From positions 1-22,683 of IMG/VR virus record IMGVR_UViG_3300037963_003307: a DNA stretch of 22,683 bases; one strand, 5' to 3'. Shown here piece after piece: positions 44 to 18,951 of this stretch. Source of the stretch: a virus. The notes under the pieces are model-generated. The model was not told where the DNA came from and did no database searches. It saw only the letters and a program-made list of their open reading frames with translations. The number at the start of each line of letters is the position of its first letter. Positions within the stretch are counted from its first letter, which is position 1. The position numbers were made by a program, and so were the translations under genes.

Positions 44-54
44 TAAATAATTAT
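44..54 (+). promoter_or_regulatory. Late-type promoter element TAAATAATTAT fused to a start codon
   Basis: The 11-mer TAAATAATTAT ends one base before the ATG at 55. It resembles the T4 late promoter core TATAAATA. A start site 5-7 bases past TAAATA would fall on or beside the ATG, giving a leaderless or nearly leaderless mRNA. The same 11-mer precedes the starts at 1264, 5910, 9962 and 17035. Promoter function is inferred from recurrence and position. Confidence 0.6.
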
Positions 55-546
55 ATGCTGTCGATAGAATTGCATGCAAAACAAACTATAAAAAAATGGT
101 TGCGTGATAATGAAATCGATATTCGTATCATCCAAAAATGTACAAACATACTTCTCAATCAAATTCGGCGACACAACAAGTGGGTCTTTCCTGAGATTGA
201 GATTAAGAGATATAAGAACGCAAACAGCAGTGGATATTATTTTGGGTTTGACGAGCTTTACTTGACTGGAAATCTAGATCAGAATGGTTGGAGTAAAGAG
301 AAGAGGTTTGATACATTTGTAAGTCATTATCTTCATGAGCTTAGACATTGGATACAGGATAACATGCTGGGGGTATCTGAAGAGAAGTTAAACTACACAG
401 ATGAAGATGTTGATAAAGAGCGACCTACATACTGTCAAAATAAATGGGAAGTAGATGCTCGACGATTCGAAAGACGATATAAGAAAGAATTCATTCAACT
501 GTATCACATTCTAGAGAAGTTATCCAAGAAAAAAGATTTGCGTTAA
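55..546 (+). CDS. Predicted small zinc metallopeptidase (HExxH protein)
   Basis: This is a 163-residue soluble protein. Residues 94-98 read HELRH, a canonical HExxH zincin motif in which the two His would bind zinc and Glu95 would be the catalytic base. WEVDARRFE follows at about 131-139, and Glu132 is well placed as the third zinc ligand, as in short zincins with a downstream E-x-D/E-A motif. The N-terminal third is basic and probably helical. No signal peptide or membrane segment is visible. The start is taken at ATG 55, directly after the late-type element, rather than at an in-frame TTG at 34 that would place the element inside the gene. The substrate is unknown; maturation of a virion protein or attack on a host protein are both possible. 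The peptidase call rests on the motif alone. Confidence 0.6.
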   Translation: MLSIELHAKQTIKKWLRDNEIDIRIIQKCTNILLNQIRRHNKWVFPEIEIKRYKNANSSGYYFGFDELYLTGNLDQNGWSKEKRFDTFVSHYLHELRHWIQDNMLGVSEEKLNYTDEDVDKERPTYCQNKWEVDARRFERRYKKEFIQLYHILEKLSKKKDLR

Positions 547-581
547 TTTCAATTATACTATTGCTCTAATTTTTATAAGGG

Positions 582-592
582 TAAATAATATT
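582..592 (+). promoter_or_regulatory. Late-type promoter element, variant
   Basis: GTAAATAATATT sits directly before the ATG at 593 and keeps the TAAATAAT core. AAGGG lies about 11 bases upstream of the ATG, which is far for a Shine-Dalgarno site. Start-codon spacing matches the other copies of the element. Confidence 0.45.
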
Positions 593-943
593 ATGAGATT
601 CAATCAACAAGTACTTTTAAAGCATGAGCATGGAATTACTGCTCAATGGATGGCGTCAGATTATTCTAACATGGCGATCGCAACCTATCAACAAGAAAAG
701 GGGACAGGGACAGATGTTGATGGTAACCAAGTTGTTCTTAAAAAATGGGTCATGGTAAATTGCTCTGGACCTTGGACAGGTTTAAGTGAGGATGGAAAGT
801 CATTAGTTATTAATGGGATGTTTGACGCAGAGAGAAAAAACATATCAGGAGAAGCGACAGTTATTCTTACCTGTCTTAATGCTACGTTAGGTGGTGAGAA
901 GGCTCTTGATGGTTTTTGGCAGGCTCAAAAGATAGGTTTCTGA
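593..943 (+). CDS. Hypothetical phage protein, 116 residues
   Basis: I do not recognise the family. The product is a compact soluble protein with alternating hydrophobic and polar stretches, a Gly/Asp-rich turn near residues 37-45 and a central WVMVNCSGPWTG segment, which suggests a small beta-rich fold. It contains two Cys but no zinc-binding pattern, and no signal peptide or membrane helix. It is the second gene of a small plus-strand group and has its own late-type element just before the ATG, so it may be expressed late independently of its neighbours. The stop at 941-943 lies two bases before the first of three AATTAATCAA-type half-sites upstream of the next gene. Confidence 0.7.
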   Translation: MRFNQQVLLKHEHGITAQWMASDYSNMAIATYQQEKGTGTDVDGNQVVLKKWVMVNCSGPWTGLSEDGKSLVINGMFDAERKNISGEATVILTCLNATLGGEKALDGFWQAQKIGF

Positions 944-944
944 T

Positions 945-983
945 TTGATTAATTTTACCCTGAATTAATCAATTGATTAATTC
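945..983. repeat. Three-half-site inverted repeat (possible operator or switchable hairpin)
   Basis: The 10-mer TTGATTAATT occurs at 945-954 and 973-982 on the plus strand, and inverted (AATTAATCAA) at 963-972. The last two form a perfect 22-bp palindrome with no spacer (962-983, half GAATTAATCAA). The first and second could form a perfect 10-bp stem with an 8-base loop. The two pairings exclude each other. No T-tract follows, so it is not an ordinary terminator. The right arm overlaps a candidate -35 box for the gene at 1008, so an operator or attenuator-like role is plausible. Confidence 0.7.
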
Positions 984-1000
984 TCTAGCTTTCCTATTAT
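973..1000 (+). promoter_or_regulatory. Candidate sigma70-like promoter for the zinc-finger gene
   Basis: TTGATT (973-978), a 16-base spacer and TATTAT (995-1000) form a plausible -35/-10 pair. The expected start is about 1007, next to the ATG at 1008. This is the only plus-strand gene of the left group without the TAAATAAT element. The -35 box lies in the right arm of the palindrome at 962-983. AT-rich sequence makes chance matches common. Confidence 0.35.
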
Positions 1001-1007
1001 ATTGAAT

Positions 1008-1259
1008 ATGGATTGCATTTGTGGTAATACTATCGAACCTGCAAGGGTTGAATTTGGTCTTAAGATCTGTAAGTCATGTGCCTTTAAAGGTCGAGGACCT
1101 TCTCGTAAGAAAGGTATTATGGTATTTGGTCATAAGACTGGCGGTGATTGTCAGATTGTAAGTCAAGAGAACTTCGCTGATTATCGCCGCCTCAACCCTT
1201 ATGGTAAGTTATCCGGTCGTGGATCGGGCGTGCATGTTGTATCACCTAAAGCTAAATAA
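1008..1259 (+). CDS. DksA/TraR-like C4 zinc-finger protein
   Basis: This is an 83-residue basic protein with a four-cysteine cluster at its N-terminus: C3 and C5, then C21 and C24. The intervening I-E-P-A-R-V-E pattern ending in C-K-S-C resembles the C4 zinc finger of DksA/TraR proteins, which bind RNA polymerase through the secondary channel. Oddly, the first pair is CxC rather than the usual CxxC, and the long coiled coil of full DksA is absent, as in short phage and plasmid TraR-type proteins. The rest is Lys/Arg/Gly-rich. The start is taken at ATG 1008; a TTG two codons earlier is the alternative. The stop TAA at 1257-1259 lies inside the next gene's late-type element. A role in transcription or another zinc-finger function is inferred. 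Confidence 0.55.
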   Translation: MDCICGNTIEPARVEFGLKICKSCAFKGRGPSRKKGIMVFGHKTGGDCQIVSQENFADYRRLNPYGKLSGRGSGVHVVSPKAK

Positions 1260-1263
1260 TTAT
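1253..1263 (+). promoter_or_regulatory. Late-type promoter element TAAATAATTAT overlapping an upstream stop codon
   Basis: This exact copy of the 11-mer runs from the last Lys codon and TAA stop of the zinc-finger gene up to the ATG at 1264. The promoter-like element is thus built into the end of the previous coding sequence. Confidence 0.6.
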
Positions 1264-1476
1264 ATGAACCCATCAGAATTCGAAAGAACAAAACCTACCC
1301 AAACATACGCTGCTTTAGACGGTATGATTAGTAAGTATCGACGTATTGTAAATGAGCATACCTATAACGGTCAATCGTTAATTATGGAAGGTACAGATAG
1401 TGCTCAGTTGCATTTAGCTCAACAAGTTGTTGCTGAGTTAGAAAACGTTAAAGCGTTATTTGTATCTGGTCGATGA
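1264..1476 (+). CDS. Hypothetical small protein, 70 residues
   Basis: The family is not recognised. The product is a 70-residue, probably all-helical soluble protein, with two likely amphipathic helices (about residues 14-32 and 44-66). No Cys, signal peptide or membrane segment is visible. The start at ATG 1264 is chosen because the late-type element ends immediately before it. A longer reading from 1201 would overlap the zinc-finger gene by 59 bases and contain the element. The TGA stop overlaps, in the ATGA arrangement, the start of a possible 33-residue membrane peptide. Confidence 0.7.
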   Translation: MNPSEFERTKPTQTYAALDGMISKYRRIVNEHTYNGQSLIMEGTDSAQLHLAQQVVAELENVKALFVSGR

Positions 1477-1574
1477 GAAATATATATGTTTATATGATCC
1501 TCGGGCTTATTAGCTGGGGGATCATTTTTCTTTTTATATATGCGTTCTTGTGGTTACTTAGATCTGCTTTCTAA
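1473..1574 (+). CDS. Possible 33-residue single-pass membrane peptide
   Basis: A short reading frame begins in an ATGA overlap with the stop of the preceding gene and encodes 33 residues. A short Arg/Asn start is followed by an unbroken hydrophobic stretch of about 20 residues (roughly 8-28, rich in Ile, Leu, Phe and Trp) and a short C-terminal tail with one Arg. It reads as a single transmembrane helix, like the small membrane peptides common in phages. The stop-start overlap supports translation by coupling. Against it, the frame overlaps a strong terminator hairpin, and a T-rich terminator tail automatically encodes Phe/Leu/Ile. Its stop overlaps by four bases the end of the large convergent gene. 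Function, if real, is unknown. Confidence 0.4.
   Translation: MRNIYVYMILGLISWGIIFLFIYAFLWLLRSAF
1496..1535 (+). terminator. Intrinsic terminator at the end of the left plus-strand group
   Basis: GATCCTCGGGCT and AGCTGGGGGATC can pair into a 12-bp stem with one mismatch and two G-U pairs, closed by a TATT loop. A then TTTTT-C-TTTTT follows. This is a typical rho-independent terminator for plus-strand transcripts, just before the convergent end of the 1149-residue gene. The opposite strand has no T-tract after the hairpin, so it should be one-directional. Confidence 0.7.
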
Positions 1575-4500
1575 GTAATAGTCATTTCCTCATTAGTGTC
1601 GTAGTAAGGAGTTATTTTCTTTAACTCCTCTTTTAATCTCTCTTTTATCTTATCTTTTAACTTCTCATCTTTAATATCTGTGTTGAGGATGTCAACCTTA
1701 TAATTATTATTAATTTTTTCTGGGAAGCTAAATTTAGACAGTTTATCGATAGTATCGATATATGTTCTTTGACCAATAGGATAAGACCAGATAAGATCCT
1801 TGTCTCCGATATGATAGTTATAATGAGCTAACATATCGAAATAGGACATTACTTTGTTGTAGAGTTTAAAACCTTTTATCTTAGCATTATTAATAAAATA
1901 CTTCTTAGGTTGTTGTAACCTATTCGCTAAGGTGAGATAGAATGGAGTACTTACTGCTCCGACATATAAACCAGTTCCTAAAATGTTATCTAAAGCAAAT
2001 GTACCTGCGGAGAAATTGACTGTTTGATAATGACTTCCATTCACATAAAGCTCCATATAACCTTTCCTCAAAGATACATTAACAAAGAAATGATTATAAC
2101 CAGAATTCAATGTTGTAATATCAAAGTCAATTGAACTCTTCACTCTAGGAATAACTCCAGAGGAAGAAAATTTTGGTTTTGCTTTTATTACAACTTTAAG
2201 TCTGTTCTTATTAGCACCTGTATTTCTTAGGTAATAATATGATGTAACAGATTTAGTGAGTTTTAAATTTCCTAGACTAGGTTTTCCTGGGCCACTATTA
2301 AAGAACTTTTTAGAGGCTATAATTTCTAATCTTTCATTAAGTTTAGTTAATCGAAAACCGTCATTAAATTCTTGTATAAACAAAATATATTTTTTGTAGA
2401 CTCCATCTTCGAAGTCACAAATTATATCCATGTAAGTTTGTTGGAAAGGAAAGTTATTAATATCGCAAAATTCTCTTGTGCGCTTCAATTTGCGATTATT
2501 ATCTAAAATAGAAATGATATTATTATCATGTAGTACAACAATGTTGTCATTGTCGTCAATTATTACGCCATTAATTTTTGTTTTAATACCGAGACCAGCT
2601 TTTATAGAATCAGTTAAAGACTCAGAATAGTTAAGAGGGTCAGCATTTTTTTGTACATAGTTTTGAGTGTTAGATAAGTCGTTTGGTTTCTCTTGTCTTA
2701 ACACAAATGGGTTACCACTGCTATCAAAACTAATTTCATTACCATACCCGTTATTTGCATCTACTTTATATACAGTAGTACCGCCATTTTTTCTTACAAT
2801 CTTTCCTTTTTGGCCTTTCGTATTCGCAGAAACACTTGTAGTAACAGTATTAGTTTTATTAGTGTTATAATTATAAGTAAAGAAATTACCTGCCGCTGTT
2901 ACAGGGTTAAATAACACATGCAATTTGTCTTCTCCTACTTCAAAGTCATCAACTACAGCGTTTGTATCTTTTAGATCTTCAATCTTACTAATGAGATTAT
3001 TGTTACTGTTAAATACGTATATTACATTATTAACACCTAATACATAAAACTCAGAGAAGTTATCTTTTCTACCGATTGCTTTTATTTCAATCTCACTCTT
3101 TCCGTCTCTTAATATAATCTCATCATAAGATTCGAAGTCATTATTTAAAAACATTAACTTACTCATTCTACCAGATTTTTCGTTTCGAGTAGGTAGGATA
3201 ATATTAGGAGTAATTAAGTCAGTATTAAATATACCAAATCCTTCTTCAAAGTAATTACCTAGTATCTGGTAGCCAAATGGTAAGGTGTTGTCTTCAGTAT
3301 GTAACCAAAAATTAGTACTAAAGTCTCCAATAGACTCAGTTTTAATTCTGCCTAATGTTTCTCCGTTTAGTACAATCTCATCGTCGTCTAATACCTTATC
3401 AACAACTTGAGGTACCCCTTTGTAATTAATATACTCTATCCCTGACGCTTCATTATATTGAGTATTATAAGCTTCAAATAACTTTCCATAGTCATTTGAC
3501 CCTATATGATAAAACATATAATCATTATTAGGCTCAAATGTTAAACTAGATGAAACATCGAATGTCTCTGTTGTTTCAGCCCCAGCTGCAGTAACAACCT
3601 TATAATAAGATGTAGTAGAAAGAGCAGCGGTAAAGTTTTTAATAGATGGGTTATAATACCTATCTACCCATTTAGTTTCTCCATCACTATTACCTGATAA
3701 CCAACTACACAAATAAGTCGGATCAGTATTATTACTGTAGTTGTTGTTTTTAATATCTACTCGTCTCTTGAAGACCTTGTCCGACATTAACGGATTATCT
3801 CCTGGTATAGCTCCTAAGTTTTCTATCTTAGAATCTTTAATATGTAGAACAGTATACGGAGATAAAGAACTAGGAGTTGTGAAGTATGTTAATTTATTAG
3901 GCTTAAATGCAATATCATATGTACCTATATTATAAGATACTCCTATTTTGTCTGTACCTGTTTGTTGGTTTGTACCTGCATGTATTTTTTCGTATACGCG
4001 GTTTAAATAGCCTGGTTCGGAATTAAAGTGATTATTTTCCGCGTAATATTCGTGTAGCGTAGCTTGGTTTTTTAAAGGAAATATATCTGCGTGTACAGTG
4101 TTGGTATTGTTCTGCTTTTGTTGAAAGTAATTATAATTATTACTATAAACAAAATAATTATTACTAATGTACTCTGTTACAGTACTAGTATTTAAATCTA
4201 CAACATCTGTATTAAAAGAAGAAGTATATTTAACAAAACTATTAGGTAATGTCTTATAATCTTTTGTTAACTCATATCTATTAATATCAAATATACAAGC
4301 GCTAAGTAAACTTGCTGTATTAAAAAAGTTATCAATACCAGACAAGCTCAGGGTTCCTCCGTGATTACATAATCTACCATCTCGAGCAGATAACTCTGGA
4401 GTAACATTAGAAAGTATTATTTTATTGTTATCTATATTATATCTAAAACTAGGTATATCAGATGATACTGCTGACAATGGTAAAAATATCGCTGTAGTAT

Positions 4501-5020
4501 CAGTACCAGAAACTGCAGCAAGATAATACGTATTGTCTGCAGAAGTAGTTGTAACAATAACTCTATCTTCTGGTGGAAGTGTATTGCCTGATGTCGCTGT
4601 TACATCGGTTGATTTGGTTAATGATGTACTTGTAAGTGTAAAAGTAAAAAAGAACTGGCTACTTAGGTTACTAAACTCAGTAGATGATACAAAATCAGCG
4701 CTTAGAGCTGAAGCAGCAGACCCTGAAGTCATAAGAAAGTCTCCGTCAAATTTTACGGTAGTTGTAAACTTCTCTGTTGCTTTTTTAGTGTAAGGTATTT
4801 TTAACTCTAAGATAGTAGATAGTGGTTGGAGCTCAGATAATATGTACTGAGTATTGTAATTTGTTTTTCTATCTTTAGCGTCTTTATTAAAGTAGTATTG
4901 ATCTACTGTTAAACCGAAGTCAAAGTTTTCTCTATATTTTCTGAATACTAGCGTACTGTCGTGCATATGATTATACTCGACTGGCGTAATACTTTCAGTA
5001 TTAATAGAGTTAATAATCAT
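1571..5020 (-). CDS. Large virion protein with C-terminal LamG-like domain (candidate tail fibre or receptor-binding protein)
   Basis: This is an 1149-residue Asn/Ser/Thr-rich protein, last gene of the minus-strand virion block. Residues 1-90 form a distinct Tyr-rich N-terminal region. Residues 640-905 contain several short beta segments separated by Asp/Asn-Gly turns (for example VVDDFEVGEDKLHVLF, GVIIDDNDNIVVLHDN), suggesting propeller-like repeats. About 915-1067 resembles a concanavalin A/LamG domain: VSLRKGYMELYVNG at 982-995 and the closing strand-helix GFKLYNKVMSYFDMLAHY near 1050-1067 are typical. A charged helix lies at 1114-1137. The gene starts two bases after the stop of the 295-residue gene, with which it should be co-transcribed. 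No signal peptide or membrane segment is seen. LamG domains often bind carbohydrate, so surface adsorption is the favoured role. Structural status is inferred from context and size. Confidence 0.6.
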   Translation of the reverse strand: MIINSINTESITPVEYNHMHDSTLVFRKYRENFDFGLTVDQYYFNKDAKDRKTNYNTQYILSELQPLSTILELKIPYTKKATEKFTTTVKFDGDFLMTSGSAASALSADFVSSTEFSNLSSQFFFTFTLTSTSLTKSTDVTATSGNTLPPEDRVIVTTTSADNTYYLAAVSGTDTTAIFLPLSAVSSDIPSFRYNIDNNKIILSNVTPELSARDGRLCNHGGTLSLSGIDNFFNTASLLSACIFDINRYELTKDYKTLPNSFVKYTSSFNTDVVDLNTSTVTEYISNNYFVYSNNYNYFQQKQNNTNTVHADIFPLKNQATLHEYYAENNHFNSEPGYLNRVYEKIHAGTNQQTGTDKIGVSYNIGTYDIAFKPNKLTYFTTPSSLSPYTVLHIKDSKIENLGAIPGDNPLMSDKVFKRRVDIKNNNYSNNTDPTYLCSWLSGNSDGETKWVDRYYNPSIKNFTAALSTTSYYKVVTAAGAETTETFDVSSSLTFEPNNDYMFYHIGSNDYGKLFEAYNTQYNEASGIEYINYKGVPQVVDKVLDDDEIVLNGETLGRIKTESIGDFSTNFWLHTEDNTLPFGYQILGNYFEEGFGIFNTDLITPNIILPTRNEKSGRMSKLMFLNNDFESYDEIILRDGKSEIEIKAIGRKDNFSEFYVLGVNNVIYVFNSNNNLISKIEDLKDTNAVVDDFEVGEDKLHVLFNPVTAAGNFFTYNYNTNKTNTVTTSVSANTKGQKGKIVRKNGGTTVYKVDANNGYGNEISFDSSGNPFVLRQEKPNDLSNTQNYVQKNADPLNYSESLTDSIKAGLGIKTKINGVIIDDNDNIVVLHDNNIISILDNNRKLKRTREFCDINNFPFQQTYMDIICDFEDGVYKKYILFIQEFNDGFRLTKLNERLEIIASKKFFNSGPGKPSLGNLKLTKSVTSYYYLRNTGANKNRLKVVIKAKPKFSSSGVIPRVKSSIDFDITTLNSGYNHFFVNVSLRKGYMELYVNGSHYQTVNFSAGTFALDNILGTGLYVGAVSTPFYLTLANRLQQPKKYFINNAKIKGFKLYNKVMSYFDMLAHYNYHIGDKDLIWSYPIGQRTYIDTIDKLSKFSFPEKINNNYKVDILNTDIKDEKLKDKIKERLKEELKKITPYYDTNEEMTIT

Positions 5021-5022
5021 AG

Positions 5023-5910
5023 TTAAGAAATTTTAAATATATCAAGTTTACCTTTTTGAATTAAATTACTACTGGTAGCTCGTAACGATTCACCAAGATT
5101 TATAGTTACAACCTCCAGAATGTCGACAGATTTTATCCCTCTGTTAAATTTTTGTAGTTTGGCTATATACTTCGTAAATATTTCCTCACTCGATCCATCA
5201 CTTTTGTCCTTATAAAAAGTGATTGTTGCGTCTTGAGACATTGAAACCGCAGCTGTAAAATTACCAGTTATCAAATATCTCGAACCATCTACGAAACCTT
5301 CATTTGCGTCTGGAAAGGTTAGTTTGAACGGATTTAATTGTACAGTACAGTTTGGGTTCGTTGTCGACGGATCAAGATCTGCTTTAGTAAAACCTACACT
5401 TGCTCTGCTACCACGACCTCCTCCAGTTGCTCCTGTGACTATACAATTACAAGCTGATGTTTGTAGAGTAATACTGTTAAGAACCGAGCTACTGGTAGAT
5501 TCTAATACCCCTGCAAGGTTATCAAGTACAGTGCGTAATTCAGTTATGGCGGATGTGTTAGTTACAATATCAGCTGAAACAGACGCTAAGTTGGCGATAG
5601 CGTTAAAGTTAAATTTACCTAATTCTACTGTTCCACTAATTTGATCATATTGTGTATTAAGCCCTGGAGTTGTTTGATTGTTAAGAATATTAAAACCAGT
5701 TACCACATTATAATTTGTAGTAGACTCTCCTTCAACATTTTCATCCTTGAGTCGGTTAGCGAAACTAATATTATCCGTACCTATAACAAAGTCTTTAAAA
5801 GCAATCATCTTAGTACCATTGCTCGTTTCTATTAATAGCTTGTCACTATTAAGTATCTCTGTTCCAATATCAATATCTGATATATTAATAATTTCGTCTT
5901 CTATCGCCAT
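5023..5910 (-). CDS. Fibre-like virion protein, 295 residues
   Basis: The family is not firmly recognised. Residues 10-50 (DIGTEILNSDKLLIETSNGT, then MIAFKDFVIG) resemble a short N-terminal attachment segment seen in other phage fibre or appendage proteins. A region rich in small residues follows (about 95-150), with repeated hydrophobic spacing that could form a trimeric coil (IANLASVSADIVTNTSAITE). Next come a CNC pair and a Gly-rich linker (GATGGGRGSRASVG) near 153-171, and then a beta-rich C-terminal domain with alternating hydrophobics. This looks like a trimeric short fibre or adaptor. It is the first gene of the leftmost late unit, has a perfect late-type element before its ATG, and is followed two bases later by the 1149-residue gene, so the two may form one appendage. 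Confidence 0.5.
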   Translation of the reverse strand: MAIEDEIINISDIDIGTEILNSDKLLIETSNGTKMIAFKDFVIGTDNISFANRLKDENVEGESTTNYNVVTGFNILNNQTTPGLNTQYDQISGTVELGKFNFNAIANLASVSADIVTNTSAITELRTVLDNLAGVLESTSSSVLNSITLQTSACNCIVTGATGGGRGSRASVGFTKADLDPSTTNPNCTVQLNPFKLTFPDANEGFVDGSRYLITGNFTAAVSMSQDATITFYKDKSDGSSEEIFTKYIAKLQKFNRGIKSVDILEVVTINLGESLRATSSNLIQKGKLDIFKIS

Positions 5911-5921
5911 ATAATTATTTA
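5911..5921 (-). promoter_or_regulatory. Late-type promoter element TAAATAATTAT, minus strand
   Basis: On the minus strand the exact 11-mer ends immediately before the ATG at 5910, in the 18-base gap after the 357-residue gene. It probably starts the unit encoding the 295- and 1149-residue proteins. Confidence 0.6.
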
Positions 5922-5928
5922 ATTCCTA

Positions 5929-7002: not shown

Positions 7003-7004
7003 TA

Positions 7005-9962
7005 TTAGCCTTGTAGATCTTTCAGATCATAACTACCTTCAGTTGCGAACCAATTGCCTTGTGTAGTTACCCCGGTTGCAAAAAATTCTGGATACATTTT
7101 CTGTAGGTTAGCTTGTTCCGTGGAAATATCTATAGGAGTTCCTGTTGTGTTAGGTAGAAAATAGTATGTATAACCATCTTCATAAGCAGTTAGCTGCTCC
7201 CATTTTACCCCAAATGCCTTGCTCATTTTTTTAGCTTCATCTAAAGTTATAACTAGGGCTTTTTCTGCGGACGCATCATCTATATCATCTGGTATATTTT
7301 TAATATTAAGTATATTGAATGAAATTTCCGCTAAGCCTACGAAACCGTTTGCGTCGTTTCCACCCTCAATACCAGTTAAGTTTATACTAACATTTGGTTC
7401 TAGTACTCGACAAACCCCGCCTCCGTTTTGGTATTTCTCATCCGCGTCTTCTTTAGAACCGACTTTAACCCAGTTCCAATCTGGTCTTCCATCTGCGCCT
7501 TCCCATTGTTCCATTTTGCCTTCCCATGGATTATCTGCAGTTTCTACCATAGGCATTAACTCCCATACTTTAGTATATTTCTCAACTCCGTTCGCTTCAA
7601 AGTCTTTTTCTATGGCATCGATAAACAGTCTTTCAAGTTCGTCGTAATCTTCTGTATAATATACTTTAGTATCTGTTGTTAACCCTAGTTGCCTAACTCT
7701 CATATATACAATATATTCTCTATCGTTATATATGATTGGATCAAAAAGATGACCATTAAACATGTTTGCAGAATTAGTTAATAATTGGTTTACCGGTGCG
7801 CCTAGTACAGGTCCGCGATCACCAGCCAAGAAACAAACAGCGCCCCATCCTTTATTACCTCCAAGAGTGAATGTTTCTTCACCTGTTGATGTTATTCGTT
7901 TTCGGAATGAAGGTAATAAGTTTGCAATTGGCTCTGACGGTACAACTAGATCAGCAGGTACTCCGTATATTTTTTCTACAGTTTCTCCTGTCGCTCTTGG
8001 TATTGAACCTCCGCCGATTTCTGGTATTAAATCTCCACGCTCAACTGCTTGTACAACTGTATCAATATCTTCCGGTCTGATTCCAGTGTATTTAACCTCT
8101 ACATCTTGTTCTATAAATTCTGGTTCATTATTATCACACAATGTAATCTCGGTTGTATTTGTCCGCTCATATAATTCACTTGCTATATTGTTTTTTGATG
8201 GGATAACCATTTCTATGTCTACGTTATCATCTAGCTCAGAATAAGTGAGTCGTTCTCTAAGATTCTTAGAAGATTTGTTTAAATAATCAATCCGGGTTTT
8301 TTGTTCTTGTGTTTCTGGTTCTATTTTTTCTTCCCACGGGTTATGTACTTTAACTCCTTTTACTTCAAAGGAATGTAATTCAAACTGACTTACTTTTGTA
8401 CTTGTAGTAAAAGATAGACCTATGTTTAGTAACGGGTATTCATCGTTTTGTACCTGAAAACCAGACCACGGGTCATACATATTACTACCACCTACATTAC
8501 CAGCATTACCAGTCGTACTATAATAACTTCCTTGTATCTTATTAAGACGTAAATCTAATATAGTGTTATATGTTTCACTCGATGTGAGTTTATGCGAGAC
8601 AGTTAATCTATTTCCTTTATTAGTTAGATCTACTCTGTAATCAACAAAAACTGCATCAGCTGCAGACGTATGTAGAGGTATAGCAGTTGAACCAGGAACA
8701 GCAGAAAGATCTACTGAGGTTAATATTTGATTATTAGTAAATCTGTTTCCTCTTATCGATACTGAACATGGAGAAGGAGTAGTTGTATTTACATTAAACC
8801 ACCCAGGTTTATCTTCTGTAGTTTTACCAAAATTACCAGCTATATCAAAACCGACCCCTATGAAACTATTTGCTTCTCGTCCATCACCAATACAACCATA
8901 TGTTTCTTTAAATGGATTCCAATTGTTTCTCTCAAACAAACCAACTGTAGTTTGAGCAGAGCCAGCGGTTTCAACTACATTGAAGTCTGCTGGGCTATAA
9001 CCGAGTGTTGACGCAACACCATTAGGTACAACATACCGATCCTTTTGAGGCTGTTCAAACAAATATACACAAAAACCTTCCCCAGCTCCAGCAGGGGAAT
9101 ATTGCTGTATCCATCTTGAAGCACTATTACCTACTGTTTGAGTACTCGCATAAGCAGTAGGAGCAGGTACGTTAAAACTTCTCGCCCGAAAATCTATTCT
9201 TATAGTATGTTGTGGATCATAAGCAGCGTATTTTGGATTAACAGTTATATAACCACCGCTAAACATAAGAGGGAAATTTTTATCTCCTGTTAATGCGTCA
9301 AATGCTGTATCGGTATAATCTTGAATTAAATTAAAGCCTATTGCGCTTGTACTTTCTACATGTGTAGGAGACACCATGTAGTTAGGGGACCTTTCTATTT
9401 CTGCACCGACTGCTGGGTTAAACCAAGAAGCGTTTTGGTTACGTACAGTATTACCACCAAGATATAAATCAGAGTTTAAATAACCACTGTCAAATGTAAA
9501 TCGACCGTTTACGGCTGATAAGGAATTTTGTGGTAAAAGGGATTTAGCTTTTAATAAATGAAACTTACTATCTACATCTTCAAATATGTAATTATTAATT
9601 ACTAACCCATCTACATCACTAGCGAACCGACCTAAAAAGGTTACAGAATATCTTGACGTGTCCTTATTATAATTAATGAGAGGTTTTGTTATAGAGTCAA
9701 AATTTAAATCTTCTACAGGACATGGAGGAGTTAATTTAAATATATCAGAGTTTTCATCTGTATGAAAGGTGTCTAAATTATCAGGATATATTGTTTGTCT
9801 ATAATTTGTATCTTTATCGATTTTGTAAATTATTGGTAATGCACCGTATATAGTATCTCCTGATTCGCATCTTGCTGCAGTAATAGCACTAACAGTACAA
9901 ACGAACATTTCTTTCGTTTGATCGTTGTAAAATATGTCTGACTGTTTGTTGCTAAAAGGCAT
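7005..9962 (-). CDS. Large virion protein with L-type-lectin-like domain (candidate glycan-binding adhesin)
   Basis: This is a 985-residue protein. Residues about 200-540 read like a legume/L-type lectin sandwich: GEGFCVYLFEQ at 294-304, LGYSP at 320-324, SFIGVGFDIAGNFGK at 366-380 (compare the A-V-E-F-D-T strand of L-type lectins, whose Asp is a sugar/metal site), VDYRVDLTNKGNRLTVSHKL at 440-459, IGLSFTTST at 514-522 and FELHSFEVKGVKV at 527-539. The order and spacing fit the family, so carbohydrate binding is likely. The N-terminal 190 residues are a separate beta-rich region. The C-terminal 440 residues are unrelated and more acidic, with two NPWE motifs and a Gly/Trp-rich segment. An exact late-type element precedes the start, and the 357-residue gene follows almost without gap. 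Virion location is inferred from position. Confidence 0.6.
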   Translation of the reverse strand: MPFSNKQSDIFYNDQTKEMFVCTVSAITAARCESGDTIYGALPIIYKIDKDTNYRQTIYPDNLDTFHTDENSDIFKLTPPCPVEDLNFDSITKPLINYNKDTSRYSVTFLGRFASDVDGLVINNYIFEDVDSKFHLLKAKSLLPQNSLSAVNGRFTFDSGYLNSDLYLGGNTVRNQNASWFNPAVGAEIERSPNYMVSPTHVESTSAIGFNLIQDYTDTAFDALTGDKNFPLMFSGGYITVNPKYAAYDPQHTIRIDFRARSFNVPAPTAYASTQTVGNSASRWIQQYSPAGAGEGFCVYLFEQPQKDRYVVPNGVASTLGYSPADFNVVETAGSAQTTVGLFERNNWNPFKETYGCIGDGREANSFIGVGFDIAGNFGKTTEDKPGWFNVNTTTPSPCSVSIRGNRFTNNQILTSVDLSAVPGSTAIPLHTSAADAVFVDYRVDLTNKGNRLTVSHKLTSSETYNTILDLRLNKIQGSYYSTTGNAGNVGGSNMYDPWSGFQVQNDEYPLLNIGLSFTTSTKVSQFELHSFEVKGVKVHNPWEEKIEPETQEQKTRIDYLNKSSKNLRERLTYSELDDNVDIEMVIPSKNNIASELYERTNTTEITLCDNNEPEFIEQDVEVKYTGIRPEDIDTVVQAVERGDLIPEIGGGSIPRATGETVEKIYGVPADLVVPSEPIANLLPSFRKRITSTGEETFTLGGNKGWGAVCFLAGDRGPVLGAPVNQLLTNSANMFNGHLFDPIIYNDREYIVYMRVRQLGLTTDTKVYYTEDYDELERLFIDAIEKDFEANGVEKYTKVWELMPMVETADNPWEGKMEQWEGADGRPDWNWVKVGSKEDADEKYQNGGGVCRVLEPNVSINLTGIEGGNDANGFVGLAEISFNILNIKNIPDDIDDASAEKALVITLDEAKKMSKAFGVKWEQLTAYEDGYTYYFLPNTTGTPIDISTEQANLQKMYPEFFATGVTTQGNWFATEGSYDLKDLQG

Positions 9963-9973: not shown

Positions 9974-12274
9974 CTAAGTTATTATAGATTTCGACCCTGC
10001 GGCGTTTTTAAATGTACCGTCATCAAATGTATATTTTTCAGTTAATGTTTCTACGTTAGTTTGTATGTATATTGAATCTTCGATAATCTCAAAATCTTGT
10101 ATTTTATTAGATGTGTAAATTCGGCCTTTTGTTGCAGCAGAATGTTTATTAAACACAGCAGACATGGCTTGTTTTAAAGTTAATACTTCTTGAGAAAAGT
10201 TATTACGTACAAATATCTCTCCAAACTCTTCAAATTGCTGCTCAAATAACTGATACTTTGTTGCTGTTGGTTGGTTGAGGCTCGCTGACTCATACGTAGT
10301 AATTGTATTAGAATAAATTGCAGTCGAATCAATTGTGTAGTATGGTATAGTTATATCTTTAAAATAATTCTCAATTAATAAATCTGAGCGACCTGGGTGA
10401 CTTTTAAACGGACCACCGTCAACCGCTGAGACAGCAGATACGGAACCACATGATAAGGCTATTGTATGTAGGTCTGTACAATTGTATGTTGATAATGGCG
10501 CAAAGAATGAACTACCAGCTCCACCAATACTGCCTAGATCATTTAATGTGTTGTCATTAACAATGAAGGTATCATATATTCCAGTCAACCCTGTATACGC
10601 TGTAGGGCTATCTGCTTGAGCTGCGGATATAGCAGATAAAAGCGGATTAAAATAAAGACCGTCATAAAACTCCGCGGCTGTTGTACAGCTTGTATCTGTG
10701 CTAGATGACTCTTCGCTTATATATGATGTTCCTGCTTTTCTCTTTGGGTATACCGACTTAATAAAGTAAAACTCATTACCATATACATCGCTCCGTAATT
10801 TAACACCTGTCTTGTTTGTGATAAGTAAATCATCTAAGCGTTTACTTTCCGGAAATATATTCAAAACACTTACCGGATAAGTATCTGTATTTCTCCAATC
10901 GATATGACCTTCTGCATCTTCCCAAAAACTAATATTATCTTCTCTTTTGTTAATACCTGCAGGAGTATATTCTAAACTGTTTTCTTGGCTTTGATAACCA
11001 TAATTGCGTACAATTTTATTATTATAAAAATTAATAGAATTTGTTCTATCATTATTTTTAAATGTGTTTGTTTTAGATTTAAAAATTAATGGAGTACTTT
11101 GTTTAACTTTTATATTGCGTAAAATATTGCCTTTGTGGTCTTTAATATAACCAACTGCTTTTAACCCTGGTTCATATTGGTGTGGGTTTGGAATTAAATA
11201 CTCTCTTCCGTTGAACGCAGATAAATTAATATTAAAAGTTAGACCAAAAGAATTAAAATTATTTGTACCAGTATTTTTATATGAAAGCTGAAAAGGAAAT
11301 ATATTCGTATTTTTCTCATTTACAATACCGCCAAATAAATTAGGGCCATATCTTTGTGTTAGGTTGTTTGTAGGATTAACATTATCGTATAAAACTTCTA
11401 CATTAGCGTTCTTTTTATCTCCTGACAGCCGATATATATCATTAGCTAAATATTTTTTAATTAGATCGCGTTCAAGAATAAATTTTAAATTATCTAATGT
11501 TTTTATTTCATTACGAAAATATCTATTAGGTAGTCTTTCATAATTAGAAAACGGGTCATTAATACCTAATAAAGCGCTTGGGGTAGAGATGTTATTAGTT
11601 TCAACTTTACATTGTTTACCGTTTTTATTAATAGTAATTAATTGAAATATATTTTTTGATTTAGACTCTCTTAAAACTCTGTTGTCAATATTGTCGACTA
11701 AATCTTTATCAATCGGGTGTATATTATATATGAATTCGTCAGATACGTAATGGTCTATATCTATAGAAATTGCATTAGCGATTTTTTCAACATTTATATC
11801 TGTAGTTGAAGTATCAGTATTTTCAGTTATAAAATCTTTATTACTTAAAAGCTTAGAAATATAATTCTTTAAGTATTGTTTTACACCTGCTTTAGATGTT
11901 TTTAGTTTATTTTTAGTTGTACTAAAAGTAGCTTCATCTCTTAACTCCTTTACACTTAATACCTGATTACGAATTATATTAACAAAATAATGTACCCCTA
12001 ATTCTAGTTCATATATATCGTCTGTATCTATTTCATTTAAAAATCTTCCAACATCGGGATCTAAAGTATCTAATGTTAAATTTTTGAGGAACTGGGTATA
12101 AATAGACCTTGTGTAGTTGTTTTTTGTATCTGTATTGGCTTGTTTTTGTTCTTTCCAGTCAACCAAATAATTATTATATAATATAGATAATTCAGTCGCG
12201 TTGCGATTGTCATTATAATATTGCTTCCATTCTACAAATGATAATGGATTAGTTGTATTTAAATCTATTGTCAT
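9974..12274 (-). CDS. Large baseplate-region virion protein, 766 residues
   Basis: I cannot name the family. The N-terminal 150 residues are helical, charged and Tyr/Trp-bearing (SFVEWKQYYNDNRNATELS near 12-30, then alternating helices to about 145), unlike the beta-rich rest. The middle is Asn/Lys/Ile-rich. Residues about 560-660 are rich in Ala, Ser and Thr. The C-terminal 90 residues (from 677, with FEEFGEIFVRNNFSQEVLTL and DFEIIEDSIYIQT) form a distinct globular segment. The start overlaps the stop of the PKD protein gene as ATGA, so translational coupling is likely. In T4-type order, genes following gp6 encode outer wedge proteins, so a baseplate role is inferred from position. No enzyme motif, signal peptide or membrane helix is seen. 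Confidence 0.5.
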   Translation of the reverse strand: MTIDLNTTNPLSFVEWKQYYNDNRNATELSILYNNYLVDWKEQKQANTDTKNNYTRSIYTQFLKNLTLDTLDPDVGRFLNEIDTDDIYELELGVHYFVNIIRNQVLSVKELRDEATFSTTKNKLKTSKAGVKQYLKNYISKLLSNKDFITENTDTSTTDINVEKIANAISIDIDHYVSDEFIYNIHPIDKDLVDNIDNRVLRESKSKNIFQLITINKNGKQCKVETNNISTPSALLGINDPFSNYERLPNRYFRNEIKTLDNLKFILERDLIKKYLANDIYRLSGDKKNANVEVLYDNVNPTNNLTQRYGPNLFGGIVNEKNTNIFPFQLSYKNTGTNNFNSFGLTFNINLSAFNGREYLIPNPHQYEPGLKAVGYIKDHKGNILRNIKVKQSTPLIFKSKTNTFKNNDRTNSINFYNNKIVRNYGYQSQENSLEYTPAGINKREDNISFWEDAEGHIDWRNTDTYPVSVLNIFPESKRLDDLLITNKTGVKLRSDVYGNEFYFIKSVYPKRKAGTSYISEESSSTDTSCTTAAEFYDGLYFNPLLSAISAAQADSPTAYTGLTGIYDTFIVNDNTLNDLGSIGGAGSSFFAPLSTYNCTDLHTIALSCGSVSAVSAVDGGPFKSHPGRSDLLIENYFKDITIPYYTIDSTAIYSNTITTYESASLNQPTATKYQLFEQQFEEFGEIFVRNNFSQEVLTLKQAMSAVFNKHSAATKGRIYTSNKIQDFEIIEDSIYIQTNVETLTEKYTFDDGTFKNAAGSKSIIT

Positions 12275-14718
12275 ATGCTAAGGCCCTTCCGTATTTGATA
12301 GTCTAAATTCTTATACATTATACCATCATCATTAGTCCAATTACCGCTTAAAGATGAAGCAGTTCTTGTTATTGTTGTATATGGGTTATTGTAATCAATT
12401 AAATTTGCTTGTAAATTTTTAATTGCTGAAGTTGGGTCTGTTACCGTATATGGATAAAAATCATACATAGTAGACAACCCGCTCGCACCTGTCACAGTAG
12501 TGTCCAAAGGCCATCCCCAATTGCTATAAAGGTTGTATGTCGATAGCGCGTATGTACTTGACTCTCCAGAGGAACTACCATCAACATTTTTAGTAGCAAC
12601 CTTTTGAGGTTTAATTATTAAAAATTCGTTATTAAATTTTTGTCGTGCTACAAAATTTGTATACGCTGTAACTGTATATGTAGAAGCAGTAATTGGGTTG
12701 TTGAAATCTACATTCACACCGTCTGCAGAAGAAGTATAAAAATTCGAGTTTAAGCTTTCTGAAAATTGTTCATAGTTACCTAACAATTTAGATACCTTTA
12801 TACTAAACGTATCATACAACCTTTTTAGTTCTGAAGGTGGTTCTGGTAAAATAATATCTACATCCTCATTCAGTAAATCATAAAAGGATTGTATTTGATT
12901 TATTTTACATAAATCAACATCGTTATGATTAGTAACAAAGTTAGCTATTTTAGAGAATATAGTCTTACCAAATGTAGTCGGGCTTGAACTCGCTTCTCCT
13001 ACAAATGATGTAAATATCCCGTCAAATAGATTATCATACTCATGCATGAATGATTGGAATCTATAACTCTTAATTACTTGAGAGTAATCTATATCTTCGT
13101 TTTGTAAATAAAACTCAACGTCGTTAGTTGACGGGTAAACTGTAAATGTAAACGAACCAGTATAATGTTGTGTATTTTCCCCGACGTTACCACCAACATT
13201 GCCGAAACCAGAAAGCGAGCTCGTGTTAGCGCTTAGAGATTGTATGTTCGCAGAAACATTTAATGTCCATGTTCCAGCGCTTAATGGGTCGATATTTAGA
13301 TATAAAAAGCTACTTAACTCTGTGTTACTTGTAGTGCTGTTATATGGGAACTTATCAGTACTTACACTGCTTATATTAGTGGTGTGTAAATCTCCACCAC
13401 TTGCCCAATTGACATAAAAATTATTATCAGTAGCAGATAACGAACCGATATTGCCGTTTGTAATTCTTTTAAAGTCAGAAAAGTTCTTTAATATATTTTT
13501 GTCTTCGTCTTGTACTCCTATAAAAACCTGAAACTTATCTCCTTGTCTTTTATAATTAATCGCCGACATTTGTTTCATTCCAGTAGATGTAAAAGAAAAC
13601 AAATCAGAAAAATTTGGAACTGGTTTAGTAATTTTAACTAAAATACCGTCGTAGTTTTTAAGAGCACCTCCTCCGGTTTCAAGGAAGTTTTGACCGCTAC
13701 CGTTAATATCTGTTTCTATATTATCTACATAGAAATTTTTGAGACGATGTTTACTAAGATCAAGCTTTACAATTAATTGGACTCCTGGGTCTATGTTTGG
13801 GGTGTCGTCATAATAACTTAACACCACATTTTTACCTGATAATGTTTCTGATCCTGTCAAACCAGATACCGAAGTATTATAACTGTTAACAGCCGTCTGT
13901 GGGTTATTTGTAGCGCCTAGCATGTAGGTTTTTATGCCTAACGCGCTTAATTCTGGAATAAAACTATCCGCAACTAACTTAATAGTATTATCTTTCGGGT
14001 TAATAGCGTAATTGCGTTTATTAACTTTTATGTTTACTCCTGTATGATCAATGCGTACAGGTTTGTCTCCCGATCGATCATAAAAAGCATTAAAAGGTAA
14101 TAAATGAGCATATTTATTCTTGGTGTCGTATGGTTTTGATTTACTACCGCTCGCTGTAACATAAAGAGTAAAGTCTTCTGTTCCTGTAATAGAATCTGTT
14201 GTTGATACATCTTGCCAAGAAGCAGTTATAAGAGTTGGAAATTTTTGGCCAGGATCATCTGTACTACCAGCTCTGAACATCATACCAGAGACACTATCTA
14301 CTTCAGTGTTCGATAATTGTATATTCGTTTCTACATAGTTGTATACTGATACAGTTTCAGTAAGGGTATTAAAATACGCAGTTCCGTTGATATCATAGTA
14401 ATAAACAGCTACAGTATAAATGCCAGGAACTTTGTATGTATGAGTTGTAGTTGGAGTGTTTCGTGCACTTAGAGTGTTACCATCTCCAAAATCCCAAACT
14501 GCAACAGTAGTAGAAATCGGCGGATCGACTAGTTCATTAAACGAAGTTGAACCTGTGAGATTAGATGTAAAGGTAAATTCACTTATACGAGTGAACCCGC
14601 TATGAGTGGCAGATAAACTGTGTACATTGTTCACAGGAGAAGGTATCGACCCGGATGTGTTTACCGATAGAGTAATCGGTACTGGTACACTTAATGGACA
14701 TTTTTCCTCAGCGCTCAT
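12271..14718 (-). CDS. PKD-domain baseplate-region protein, 815 residues
   Basis: Residues about 40-126 form a textbook PKD domain: VAVWDFGDGNTLSA at 72-85, THTYKVPGIYTVAVYYYDI at 92-110. The middle (130-540) is beta-rich with many Ser/Thr turns. From about 550 the character changes to helical with aromatic residues (YRFQSFMHEYDNLFDGIF), then a C-terminal block with NWGWPL at 733-738, LIDYNNPYTTIT at 771-782 and a conserved-looking last helix. The start codon overlaps the gp6 stop as TAATG, so it should be made stoichiometrically with gp6. It occupies the T4 gp7 position; the C-terminal half could be the wedge-attachment part and the PKD half an outward spacer. That assignment is inference only; I see no clear gp7 similarity. 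Confidence 0.55.
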   Translation of the reverse strand: MSAEEKCPLSVPVPITLSVNTSGSIPSPVNNVHSLSATHSGFTRISEFTFTSNLTGSTSFNELVDPPISTTVAVWDFGDGNTLSARNTPTTTHTYKVPGIYTVAVYYYDINGTAYFNTLTETVSVYNYVETNIQLSNTEVDSVSGMMFRAGSTDDPGQKFPTLITASWQDVSTTDSITGTEDFTLYVTASGSKSKPYDTKNKYAHLLPFNAFYDRSGDKPVRIDHTGVNIKVNKRNYAINPKDNTIKLVADSFIPELSALGIKTYMLGATNNPQTAVNSYNTSVSGLTGSETLSGKNVVLSYYDDTPNIDPGVQLIVKLDLSKHRLKNFYVDNIETDINGSGQNFLETGGGALKNYDGILVKITKPVPNFSDLFSFTSTGMKQMSAINYKRQGDKFQVFIGVQDEDKNILKNFSDFKRITNGNIGSLSATDNNFYVNWASGGDLHTTNISSVSTDKFPYNSTTSNTELSSFLYLNIDPLSAGTWTLNVSANIQSLSANTSSLSGFGNVGGNVGENTQHYTGSFTFTVYPSTNDVEFYLQNEDIDYSQVIKSYRFQSFMHEYDNLFDGIFTSFVGEASSSPTTFGKTIFSKIANFVTNHNDVDLCKINQIQSFYDLLNEDVDIILPEPPSELKRLYDTFSIKVSKLLGNYEQFSESLNSNFYTSSADGVNVDFNNPITASTYTVTAYTNFVARQKFNNEFLIIKPQKVATKNVDGSSSGESSTYALSTYNLYSNWGWPLDTTVTGASGLSTMYDFYPYTVTDPTSAIKNLQANLIDYNNPYTTITRTASSLSGNWTNDDGIMYKNLDYQIRKGLSI

Positions 14719-16550
14719 TAATATTCAACAACCCGTTTGTTAGTGACTTGTGACTTTACTACGATTTTATCTTTAAAAGCAACCGGGCTTTCAATGTACG
14801 GTATTTGATATGGTTTTAATTTGCATCTAGTATCGAATACTTTTTTATCCTTCCCATTGTAGATTGGATTAAACACACAAAATGAAAGACCAGGAGTACT
14901 TCTATTTAAATCTGTACGTAATGTTTCTATGCCTTCTATGCCTTGTATTTTTTCAATCTCATTATTAAGGTATCTTACATCAATAGTATCTCCTAGTTTT
15001 AGATTATTAATGTATGTAGTAATAATATTATACACTTTACTTTTTAAATCGTCTTCATTTATTAAAGCACGAGCTTGTTTAGTTATAACTAATTGAGTAC
15101 TATCTTTATATCTAAGTCTATTTACTTCCCCTGAAAATCGTAATGATAAATCTAAATTTAAATAAACCGGGTCAATAAAAGCAATCTCACTATTTAGTAA
15201 TTTATAATCTGCGATCTCGTTTCGAATTTTTTCTTTCAGAGCATTAGAGAGATAATTTGATCTAGTAATTACAGATTTATTTTTTCTTAAATTAGGTACA
15301 ATAGTTAAGTATATATTATTTGCATCTGAACTATCCGCAAAATAATACTGATTAAACAACGCGTTAGTCTCGAGACTATAATCTGTTAAACCAAGTTCAT
15401 CATCTAGATATTTTAAATAATCGTTAGTGTAGTCACTATTGTTTTGTACAGTAACGTCATAAACAAGGTTCTTATAATTACGTTCTATAAAGCTTTTATA
15501 GTCATCCTTTGTTGTAAGTTTATATTCTGAGCTAAAGAATCTTGGTGCGTTTTGTTTAATTTCATCTGCGTTTTCTTCTTCTCCGAAATCGGTACTATCT
15601 TCTGTATTACTTATAGTAGTGTTCAATACAGTCTCAATCGTCAAAAAGTTCAGAGATGTATCTTGGGTATCTGTAAGAATGTTATCATACTGTGAAGTAT
15701 TGTATATGTTTAGCGAGCTACTATTAAAAGTATTCTTTGTTACTTTACCATCTGTACCAGAAGATTTGAGGTAGTATACTGCGATTTGGTCCCCTTGATT
15801 TAATTTTCTTCCGTTAACACTATTGCCAAACTTTATTTCATAGTTTTTATTTTCATTGTATCTAATTTCAAAACTTCTTTCATTTGGTTTTGACAAGTAC
15901 AAAGAAGGAACTCGTGACCATTCATACCATTTATTATTAGAATTAACTTCTTTTACATATACGTAAATATTAAAATGATCAATTGTAGTATTACCACCGG
16001 GTAAAATGTTTACTACTTCGAATTTTTCTCCTATAGGGTTAATAATAGGATATTCTTGTAATGTACCTTCATACATTAATTGACTTCCAATTGCAGAGAT
16101 TGTTTCAGTATCAGAAGTAGTTTTTTCAAATGTTACGTCTTTAGTGAAAGTAAATGTTTTACCTTGACTTGTTGCGAATGAAAATTTAGGAATAGTATAA
16201 TAACCAGCAGACAAATCAGAAGTACCTTTTATTTCTACCGGTAATACAGCGGTTTGTTTACCTACTGGCTTATAATCAATAAGCTTAACAATCCGATTAA
16301 TATTCTCGTATAGTTCTGCGTCATTAAAATTACTTTCAGAGCTAGTTTGGTTTAAGTAAAAAAGTAATGTATGGTATGAGTACGCAATTATATCTATAAG
16401 GGCAGAAATATTACTACCCTCAAAGTTTTGATCAGTAAAATTAATTGTCGTGTCGTTATTAATTCTATCAATGATCAGATCTCTGAGACTCTGGGCATCA
16501 AACCCAGTGTACGCATTTGTTGGTAGATTAAATTCTGTAAAGTTTGCCAT
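14718..16550 (-). CDS. 6: Baseplate wedge protein gp6 (baseplate J-like family)
   Basis: This is a 610-residue homologue of T4 gp6 (about 660 residues), which dimerises to form the inner ring of the baseplate wedge and holds gp25, gp53 and gp7. The N-terminus carries the highly conserved signature: FDAQSLRDLIIDRI at 17-30, FTDQNFEGSNISALIDIIAY at 38-57, LLFYLNQTSSES at 62-73 and ENINRIVKLIDYKPVG at 82-97. The middle is beta-rich, with VNGRKLNQGDQIAVYYL similar to baseplate J-like proteins. The C-terminal third continues the family pattern (LNNEIEKIQGIEGIETLRT). It starts two bases after the gp25 stop and overlaps the next gene as TAATG, the tight arrangement expected of a wedge operon. No Shine-Dalgarno site is visible. 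The gene looks intact. Confidence 0.93.
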   Translation of the reverse strand: MANFTEFNLPTNAYTGFDAQSLRDLIIDRINNDTTINFTDQNFEGSNISALIDIIAYSYHTLLFYLNQTSSESNFNDAELYENINRIVKLIDYKPVGKQTAVLPVEIKGTSDLSAGYYTIPKFSFATSQGKTFTFTKDVTFEKTTSDTETISAIGSQLMYEGTLQEYPIINPIGEKFEVVNILPGGNTTIDHFNIYVYVKEVNSNNKWYEWSRVPSLYLSKPNERSFEIRYNENKNYEIKFGNSVNGRKLNQGDQIAVYYLKSSGTDGKVTKNTFNSSSLNIYNTSQYDNILTDTQDTSLNFLTIETVLNTTISNTEDSTDFGEEENADEIKQNAPRFFSSEYKLTTKDDYKSFIERNYKNLVYDVTVQNNSDYTNDYLKYLDDELGLTDYSLETNALFNQYYFADSSDANNIYLTIVPNLRKNKSVITRSNYLSNALKEKIRNEIADYKLLNSEIAFIDPVYLNLDLSLRFSGEVNRLRYKDSTQLVITKQARALINEDDLKSKVYNIITTYINNLKLGDTIDVRYLNNEIEKIQGIEGIETLRTDLNRSTPGLSFCVFNPIYNGKDKKVFDTRCKLKPYQIPYIESPVAFKDKIVVKSQVTNKRVVEY

Positions 16551-16552
16551 AA

Positions 16553-17035
16553 TTATGAGTAATTAAATCCTTGTGTTGTTAATAATCCAGACGCTGTTCC
16601 TTTTTTATTATTTAACGACGGGATAGTTATTGAGATGGTAATTTTGTATTCATTATCGTCTGGTCGTGCAACTACACTCACATCGTTAACAACTATACGA
16701 GGCTCATACAAAGCTAACTCTTCATATATTGTTTGCCCTATAGTTTGGCCGTTTTCTTTAGAAACGTTTTCAAATAAATACTGTTCAAGATCTAAACCAA
16801 AAGTTGGGTTTAGAATTTTCTGACCTTTTTTTGTATTAAAAATATTACTAATAGAGTTGTAAATAGCTTTTTCATCATAGTCAATTTTAAGGTCTTGCTT
16901 GTTTTTTTCTGCACCTGTTGGAGTATCAGGTGTTTTTGCATCTAAATCAATATCTAGATGTAAATCTGCATATGAATAGGAACGAAAACTGTTCTTATTC
17001 TTTACATCTTTTAGTATATCTAATTTAAGAGCCAT
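16553..17035 (-). CDS. 25: Baseplate wedge protein gp25 (gp25/W lysozyme-like family)
   Basis: This is a 160-residue homologue of T4 gp25 (132 residues), the lysozyme-like inner wedge protein that nucleates sheath assembly and is conserved across contractile injection systems. Family marks are FRSYSYADLHLDI near 17-29, the FNTKKGQKILNPTFGLDLEQYLFE block at 66-89, the signature EPR in YEPRIVVNDV at 110-119, and the closing beta strands with a Gly-Thr-Ala-Ser-Gly turn. An acidic/Lys stretch at about 30-50 is a small insertion relative to T4. It heads the first minus-strand late unit, with an exact late-type element ending two bases before the ATG, and is followed two bases later by gp6. In T4, genes 25 and 6 are not adjacent, whereas here they are. 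Confidence 0.92.
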   Translation of the reverse strand: MALKLDILKDVKNKNSFRSYSYADLHLDIDLDAKTPDTPTGAEKNKQDLKIDYDEKAIYNSISNIFNTKKGQKILNPTFGLDLEQYLFENVSKENGQTIGQTIYEELALYEPRIVVNDVSVVARPDDNEYKITISITIPSLNNKKGTASGLLTTQGFNYS

Positions 17036-17037
17036 CT

Positions 17038-17048
17038 ATAATTATTTA
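17038..17048 (-). promoter_or_regulatory. Late-type promoter element TAAATAATTAT, minus strand
   Basis: The exact 11-mer on the minus strand lies two bases before the gp25 ATG (17035), in a 46-base divergent gap that also holds a plus-strand copy. It should drive gp25, gp6 and the following PKD and 766-residue genes, up to the next element at 9973. Confidence 0.6.
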
Positions 17049-17069
17049 ATTTAAAATGGCTAAAAACAA

Positions 17070-17081
17070 TAAATAATTTAA
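17070..17081 (+). promoter_or_regulatory. Late-type promoter element, variant, divergent copy
   Basis: TAAATAATTTAA lies directly before the ATG at 17082 and keeps the eight-base core. With the minus-strand element at 17038-17048 it makes a back-to-back pair. A six-codon frame (MAKNNK, 17056-17076) ends inside this element and is the only other coding potential in the gap. Confidence 0.45.
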
Positions 17082-18916: not shown

Positions 18917-18922
18917 ACGACT

Positions 18923-18950: not shown

Positions 18951-18951
18951 G

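Follow-up and report, generated by a model that had tools for sequence, protein, structure and literature searches.

T4-type late promoters predicted to be fused to start codons in a clade of uncultured marine phages

The textbook example of late transcription in phages is that of T4, in which the mRNAs have leaders and Shine-Dalgarno (SD) sites. In the fragment of a T4-type phage studied here, an 11-base element, TAAATAATTAT, recurs directly or almost directly in front of ATG codons. This raises the question of where late transcription and translation would begin in such a phage. The initial annotation had proposed that the element is a late promoter core fused to the start codon, so that the late mRNAs would be leaderless. 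From the comparison of sequences, we consider it very probable that the elements are T4-type late promoters, that the late mRNAs are leaderless or nearly so, and that their translation is SD-free, as a trait of the whole clade to which the fragment belongs. In the mechanism that we propose, the box core TAAATA (T4 positions -11 to -6) would set +1 either at the A with which the start codon begins or 1-4 nt upstream. RNA polymerase with gp55 would use the boxes, and the position of the RNA start would lead to a leaderless mode of translation without SD sites. If this is true, a single DNA element fixes both the transcription start and the translation start.

The phage clade and the elements of the window

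The window, i.e., the whole stretch of DNA that was analysed, is the complete IMG/VR record IMGVR_UViG_3300037963_003307, with a length of 22,683 bases. The following genes are referred to below:

14718..16550, minus strand: gp6 baseplate wedge gene, operon-internal (PHROG 219, E=3e-44) and, from its upstream sequence, without a box of its own
16553..17035, minus strand: gp25 baseplate wedge gene, a late gene (Pfam GPW_gp25, E=3.3e-15; PHROG 261)
17568..18479, minus strand: gp44 clamp-loader ATPase gene, internal in an early operon (PHROG 168, E=1.1e-73)
18479..18916, minus strand: dUTPase gene, the first gene of the early operon (Pfam dUTPase, E=1.1e-25)

A gp6 scan of viral contigs gave 24 relatives of the window, and it contained G001, a 119-kb contig whose gp6 is 99% identical to that of the window. 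A gp17 scan, with the first 59 residues as the query, returned 80 loci. The clade sequences comprise G001-G004 and G010-G022, which were largely read, G014 and G015 by pattern only. The reference phages were T4, KVP40, Syn9, P-SSM2, AG-345-F15, AG-345-P14, HTVC008M, Mosig and Melnitz. In the gp17 and gp6 trees, the relatives of the window form a single deep group with full support, separate from the reference phages. The gp6 of the window is only about 23-26% identical to that of isolates, and its gp44 about 34-36%. The relatives of the window are an uncultured marine clade of T4-type phages. G001 encodes a QueC homolog and dTDP-sugar genes (RmlA, a 4,6-dehydratase and an RmlD-like protein), a 4357-aa ORF lies among its late genes (98564-111637), and its commonest 11-mer is CTGTTGTATTA, with 22 copies. 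When genome contigs were searched for a host, alignment of gp17 gave no match, and the phage RmlA matched only proteins in unrelated taxa, with identities of about 50% at most.

The elements in the window, and the relatives in which they are kept, are:

44..54, plus strand: TAAATAATTAT abutting the ATG at 55 of a 163-aa ORF (55-546); same distance in the orthologs of G001, G003, G011 and G012
582..592, plus strand: TAAATAATATT abutting the ATG at 593 of a 116-aa ORF; kept in G001 and G004
1253..1263, plus strand: TAAATAATTAT abutting the ATG at 1264 of a 70-aa ORF; same in G001, G003 and G004
5911..5921, minus strand: TAAATAATTAT abutting the ATG at 5910 of a 295-aa ORF (5023-5910) in a structural operon; six relatives, at 32-65% protein identity
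9963..9973, minus strand: TAAATAATTAT abutting the ATG at 9962 of a 985-aa ORF (7005-9962); box 5-6 nt before the ATG in G001, G003, G004, G011 and G012
17038..17048, minus strand: TAAATAATTAT 2 nt before the gp25 ATG at 17035; kept in G001, G003, G004, G011, G012, G013 and G020
17070..17081, plus strand: TAAATAATTTAA, box 6 nt before the ATG at 17082 of a 165-aa ORF; nine relatives
18952..18962, plus strand: TAAATATTTTT abutting the ATG at 18963 of a 157-aa ORF; kept in G001, G003, G004, G011, G012 and G013

As the initial annotation had it, there are five exact copies of TAAATAATTAT (44-54 and 1253-1263 on the plus strand; 5921-5911, 9973-9963 and 17048-17038 on the minus strand), and they end 0, 0, 0, 0 and 2 nt upstream of an ATG, respectively. 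The looser forms before 593, 17082 and 18963 are also present, as are copies of the 8-mer TAAATAAT within genes at 8280 and 15414. Additional intragenic copies of the 8-mer lie at 16614 and 3147, both on the minus strand. The copy at 17038-17048 heads the gp25-gp6 operon, and its predicted +1 would leave a 2-nt leader. Operon-internal genes of the window closely follow the preceding stop codon and have no box. The divergent late promoters predicted for gp25 and the 165-aa gene lie within 46 shared bases (17036-17081), and the pair is found in several relatives. A terminator-like hairpin, readable on both strands, is located within the 3' part of gp44 (17646-17669), 67 nt beyond the end of the convergent 165-aa gene.

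The five copies compare with 0.20-0.28 expected from Markov-shuffled windows (order 1-3), and at least five copies were seen in none of 3 x 1000 such windows. The 14-mer made of TAAATAATTAT and ATG was found 4 times against 0.001-0.005 expected. TAAATAATTAT ties, with its overlapping neighbours, as the commonest 11-mer of the window, in which the reversed control pattern has 0 copies. Chance and composition are rejected as explanations by the shuffles, by the reversed control and by hexamers of the same composition. When one mismatch to the 11-mer is allowed, the signal is gone (8 found, 5.7 expected from shuffles); thus, the exact core and its position matter. The signal had first been placed in the extra TTAT and in the distance to the ATG. 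The distance is indeed fixed across the clade, but the TTAT tail as the key signal is ruled out, since many tails are found and ATTAT is simply the commonest among many five-base tails. The part that is constant in the clade is TAAATA, the fixed distance and a pyrimidine at -1.

Distance from the box to the start codon

We defined d as the distance from the end of TAAATA to an ATG that opens a frame of at least 60 codons, and determined it in the window and in 15 related IMG/VR contigs of up to 127 kb. A peak at d=5-6 is present in the window and in all 15 contigs, whereas any excess at 15-34 nt is slight or absent; the d=5-6 counts, seen and expected, are 22 and 3.4 in G001, 24 and 2.8 in G013, and 20 and 2.5 in G021. 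Start-codon enrichment was also examined with a motif-blind scan of every hexamer at every position relative to 773 called starts in eight divergent clade contigs, each ORF being called from its first ATG. TAAATA at d=5 tops all pairs of hexamer and position, with 70 of the 773 genes where 4.4 would be expected on average. TATAAT ending 6 nt before the ATG follows as the second independent signal (30 genes against 1.9 expected). GTG starts peak at d=5 too (14).

No notable peak at d=5-6 is seen in T4, KVP40, Syn9, P-SSM2, AG-345-F15, AG-345-P14 or Melnitz, which have a broad excess at 15-34 nt. HTVC008M has a sharp peak at d=5 (12 genes), and Mosig has 6 genes at d=5. In the hexamer scan the top signals are SD sequences in T4 and Melnitz and both kinds in HTVC008M. 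Because T4, P-SSM2 and AG-345-F15 are of similar GC and have no notable peak at d=5-6, a general trait of A+T-rich T4-type phages is ruled out. Another hexamer, TATATT, is enriched directly before the ATG (d=0) in HTVC008M (9 genes) and in Melnitz (4 genes).

In most contigs, structural ORFs are preceded by boxes, as are gp25, gp17 and gp18. Thus they would serve late (virion) genes, and pol43, gp55 and the dUTPase-gp44 operon have no late box. Some of the major late genes go against the distance rule. In G001-like phages the box of gp18 (sheath) is about 16-18 nt before the ATG and accompanied by an AAAGG-like stretch, and that of gp19 (tube) is 11 nt before the ATG; in G001 these sites are near positions 23048 and 25605, and the same genes are alike in relatives. 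The most abundant proteins may keep leaders. In G020-G022, the gp18 box is at d=5.

Box and spacing are kept before the orthologs of gp25, of the 295-aa, 985-aa, 165-aa and 157-aa ORFs and of others, even where protein identity is as low as about 30%; the bases around the conserved boxes vary. We regard it as highly improbable that the motif is a chance product of gene junctions in which tandem stops (TAA A TAA) precede a start codon. Some copies do hold the stop of the preceding gene, and the one at 1253-1263 includes the stop codon of ORF 1002-1259. However, the upstream stop falls within the box in only 20 of 160 clade genes whose box is at d=5-8, and the stop-codon artefact was rejected on this count; a divergent neighbour is present in 58, and in 34 the stop is more than 40 nt away. 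In addition, T4 and the cyanophages share such junctions without a peak at d=5.

Predicted transcription start and translation

The sigma70 -10 box ends at -7, and bacterial start sites favour a pyrimidine at -1 and a purine at +1. With a -10 box ending at -7, +1 would therefore be the seventh base after the box, which is the A of the ATG at d=6. T4 late boxes span -13 to -6 (PMC2988020), and with a box ending at -6, +1 would therefore be the sixth base, which is the A of the ATG at d=5. The late and early peaks in the clade, at d=5 and d=6, are one base apart, exactly as the box ends predict.

The bases at the predicted start agree with these positions. In tests that treat kin contigs, which differ at up to half of their gp17 residues, as independent, and whose P values are too small because related contigs are not, a pyrimidine is found at -1 in 68 of 70 late genes with d=5 (P=8e-17) and in 34 of 38 early genes with d=6 (P=3e-7), each against 111 of 239 operon-internal genes; with ATGs 7-11 nt off, a pyrimidine-purine step is present at box+6 in 37 of 63 cases against a background of 25% (P=9e-8). 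Applied to sigma70 boxes at d=7-12, the same test gave no significant result (10 of 27, P=0.28). T4 late boxes have a pyrimidine-purine step at the same box+6 offset. In the clade as in T4, the sequences place the predicted +1 six bases past the end of the box. Since the start step tracks the box and not the start codon, the element would be a promoter rather than a translation signal. We take this step, together with TAAATA at d=5 as the top signal, as strong support for the proposed fusion of promoter and start codon, from which leaderless late mRNAs would arise.

Sigma-factor initiation windows vary by 1-3 nt, and there is a tail of boxes at d=7-11. Both would suit late promoters that are real but give short leaders of 5-12 nt, or that serve downstream in-frame ATGs, so that the mRNAs would be short-leadered and not leaderless. 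We think this unlikely to a high degree: T4 late boxes end at -6 (PMC2988020) and the start-step analysis gives +1 at box+6, while the orthologous proteins start at the same ATG and have similar first codons.

Homologs of gp55 are found in eight clade contigs, and homologs of the gp45 sliding clamp in nine, including G001. An iterated HMM search from Syn9 gp33 was positive in seven reference phages and in 0 clade contigs, gp33 being a small protein and the clade contigs incomplete. The TAAATA core of the box is the top signal of the hexamer scan. In the d=5 set, -12 is A in only 65%, and -13 is A in 52% and T in 27%; the T of T4 at -13 is not kept, and the bases are closer to the cyanophage NATAAATA than to TATAAATA of T4.

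The early operon of the window has a promoter of a similar layout:

18923..18950, minus strand: predicted sigma70-type early promoter of the dUTPase-gp44 operon, with -35 TTGAAT (18950-18945), a 16-nt spacer and -10 TATATT (18928-18923)

Its -10 box is 6 nt from the ATG at 18916, the A of which is the predicted +1. This layout is kept in G001, G004, G011 and G012, and with 8 nt in G003. The dUTPase early promoter on the minus strand and the late box of the 157-aa gene on the plus strand (18952-18957) stand back to back in about 45 bases (18914-18965), both fused to their start codons. As with the late promoters, fusion to an ATG is seen in many putative sigma70 early promoters of the clade. 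These many fused promoters suggest that the host readily translates leaderless mRNAs, and we predict that the host of the clade is rich in leaderless genes.

On the translation side, the SD motif is found at 2-20% of clade genes, about the level of a control stretch in most contigs, at 25-34% of genes in cyanophages, and at 52-67% in T4, KVP40, HTVC008M, Mosig and Melnitz. In a total for 11 clade contigs, it precedes only 5 of the 228 genes with a late box and 0 of the 120 with an early box. G016 has a modest SD signal, at 30% of its other genes. This contig also carries a predicted tmRNA gene (5-397) with an odd tag peptide, GKNKVSELFAKVADMFQATPKQELALA. A phage initiator tRNA was rejected as a candidate, since the CAT tRNA of G001 does not resemble an initiator by eye. 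The original idea that one element is both promoter and translation start context thus extends beyond what had been claimed, with putative sigma70 early promoters fused too and SD motifs near background in most clade contigs.

Could the A+T-rich stretch be a translation start context only, such as an unstructured or S1-binding leader, with the real promoters further upstream? AU-rich starts aid SD-independent initiation, and the clade is SD-poor and A+T-rich. Nevertheless, we judge this improbable. The distance has its peak at one base (d=5), and the count expected from hexamers of similar composition is far lower. Two hexamers in two gene classes have peaks displaced by one base, as two sigma factors require, and the pyrimidine-purine step stays with the box and not with the ATG. 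In addition, operon-internal genes lack the box as well as the preference for a pyrimidine at -1.

Comparison with known systems

T4 late promoters, which work with gp55, gp33 and gp45, resemble those predicted for the clade in having a TATA-type box with a TAAATA core and then an A+T-rich stretch. In both, the boxes precede structural genes on either strand, and the relatives of the window encode homologs of gp55 and gp45. However, T4 boxes are mostly 20-33 nt before the ATG with an SD-bearing leader, while those of the clade are at 5-8 nt without SD; the clade also differs in its weak -13 and -12 bases and in that gp33 was not found. The cyanophages S-PM2, Syn9 and P-SSM2 (NATAAATA) are, like the clade, marine T4-type phages with a relaxed -13 and reduced SD use, but their boxes are about 20-28 nt before the ATG.

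HTVC008M, a phage of Pelagibacter (SAR11), has a clade-like fusion at d=5 in 12 genes including gp25, e.g., TAAATAGTAAT followed by ATG. It differs from the clade in its branch in the gp17 and gp6 trees, in its tails, and in a mixed strategy with SD at 55% of genes. A second origin of the fused layout in HTVC008M is probable. We lean towards a history in which the clade, of family level, moved both early (sigma70) and late (gp55) transcription to leaderless mRNAs and nearly abandoned SD sites, the layout of HTVC008M having arisen separately. Because this cultured SAR11 phage has the same layout, the idea is directly testable in existing strains.

For pelagimyophages, published late-promoter prediction was unsuccessful (PMC7029224). 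The fused layout may be a reason for the failure of standard late-promoter searches in some marine phages, and it offers a rule by which to locate late genes and choose the right start codons in contigs of marine viruses. Phage genes without leaders are not new in themselves, and phage transcripts are described as often leaderless in the AR9 paper (PMC5312081). For late mRNAs of T4-type phages, our search of the open-access literature gave no description of a leaderless form.

In Actinobacteria and Deinococcus, there are leaderless genes whose -10 box adjoins the start. Their -10 box is 6-7 nt before the ATG, without SD, and the sigma70 early genes of the clade are alike. The bacterial genes use a host sigma factor, whereas the late genes of the clade would use the phage's own late sigma in the same layout. 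The T4 late core machinery appears to be coupled to leaderless translation throughout a phage clade. On sequence grounds, it is well supported that the element is a form of the T4 late promoter that is fused to the start codon throughout a clade of SD-poor phages.
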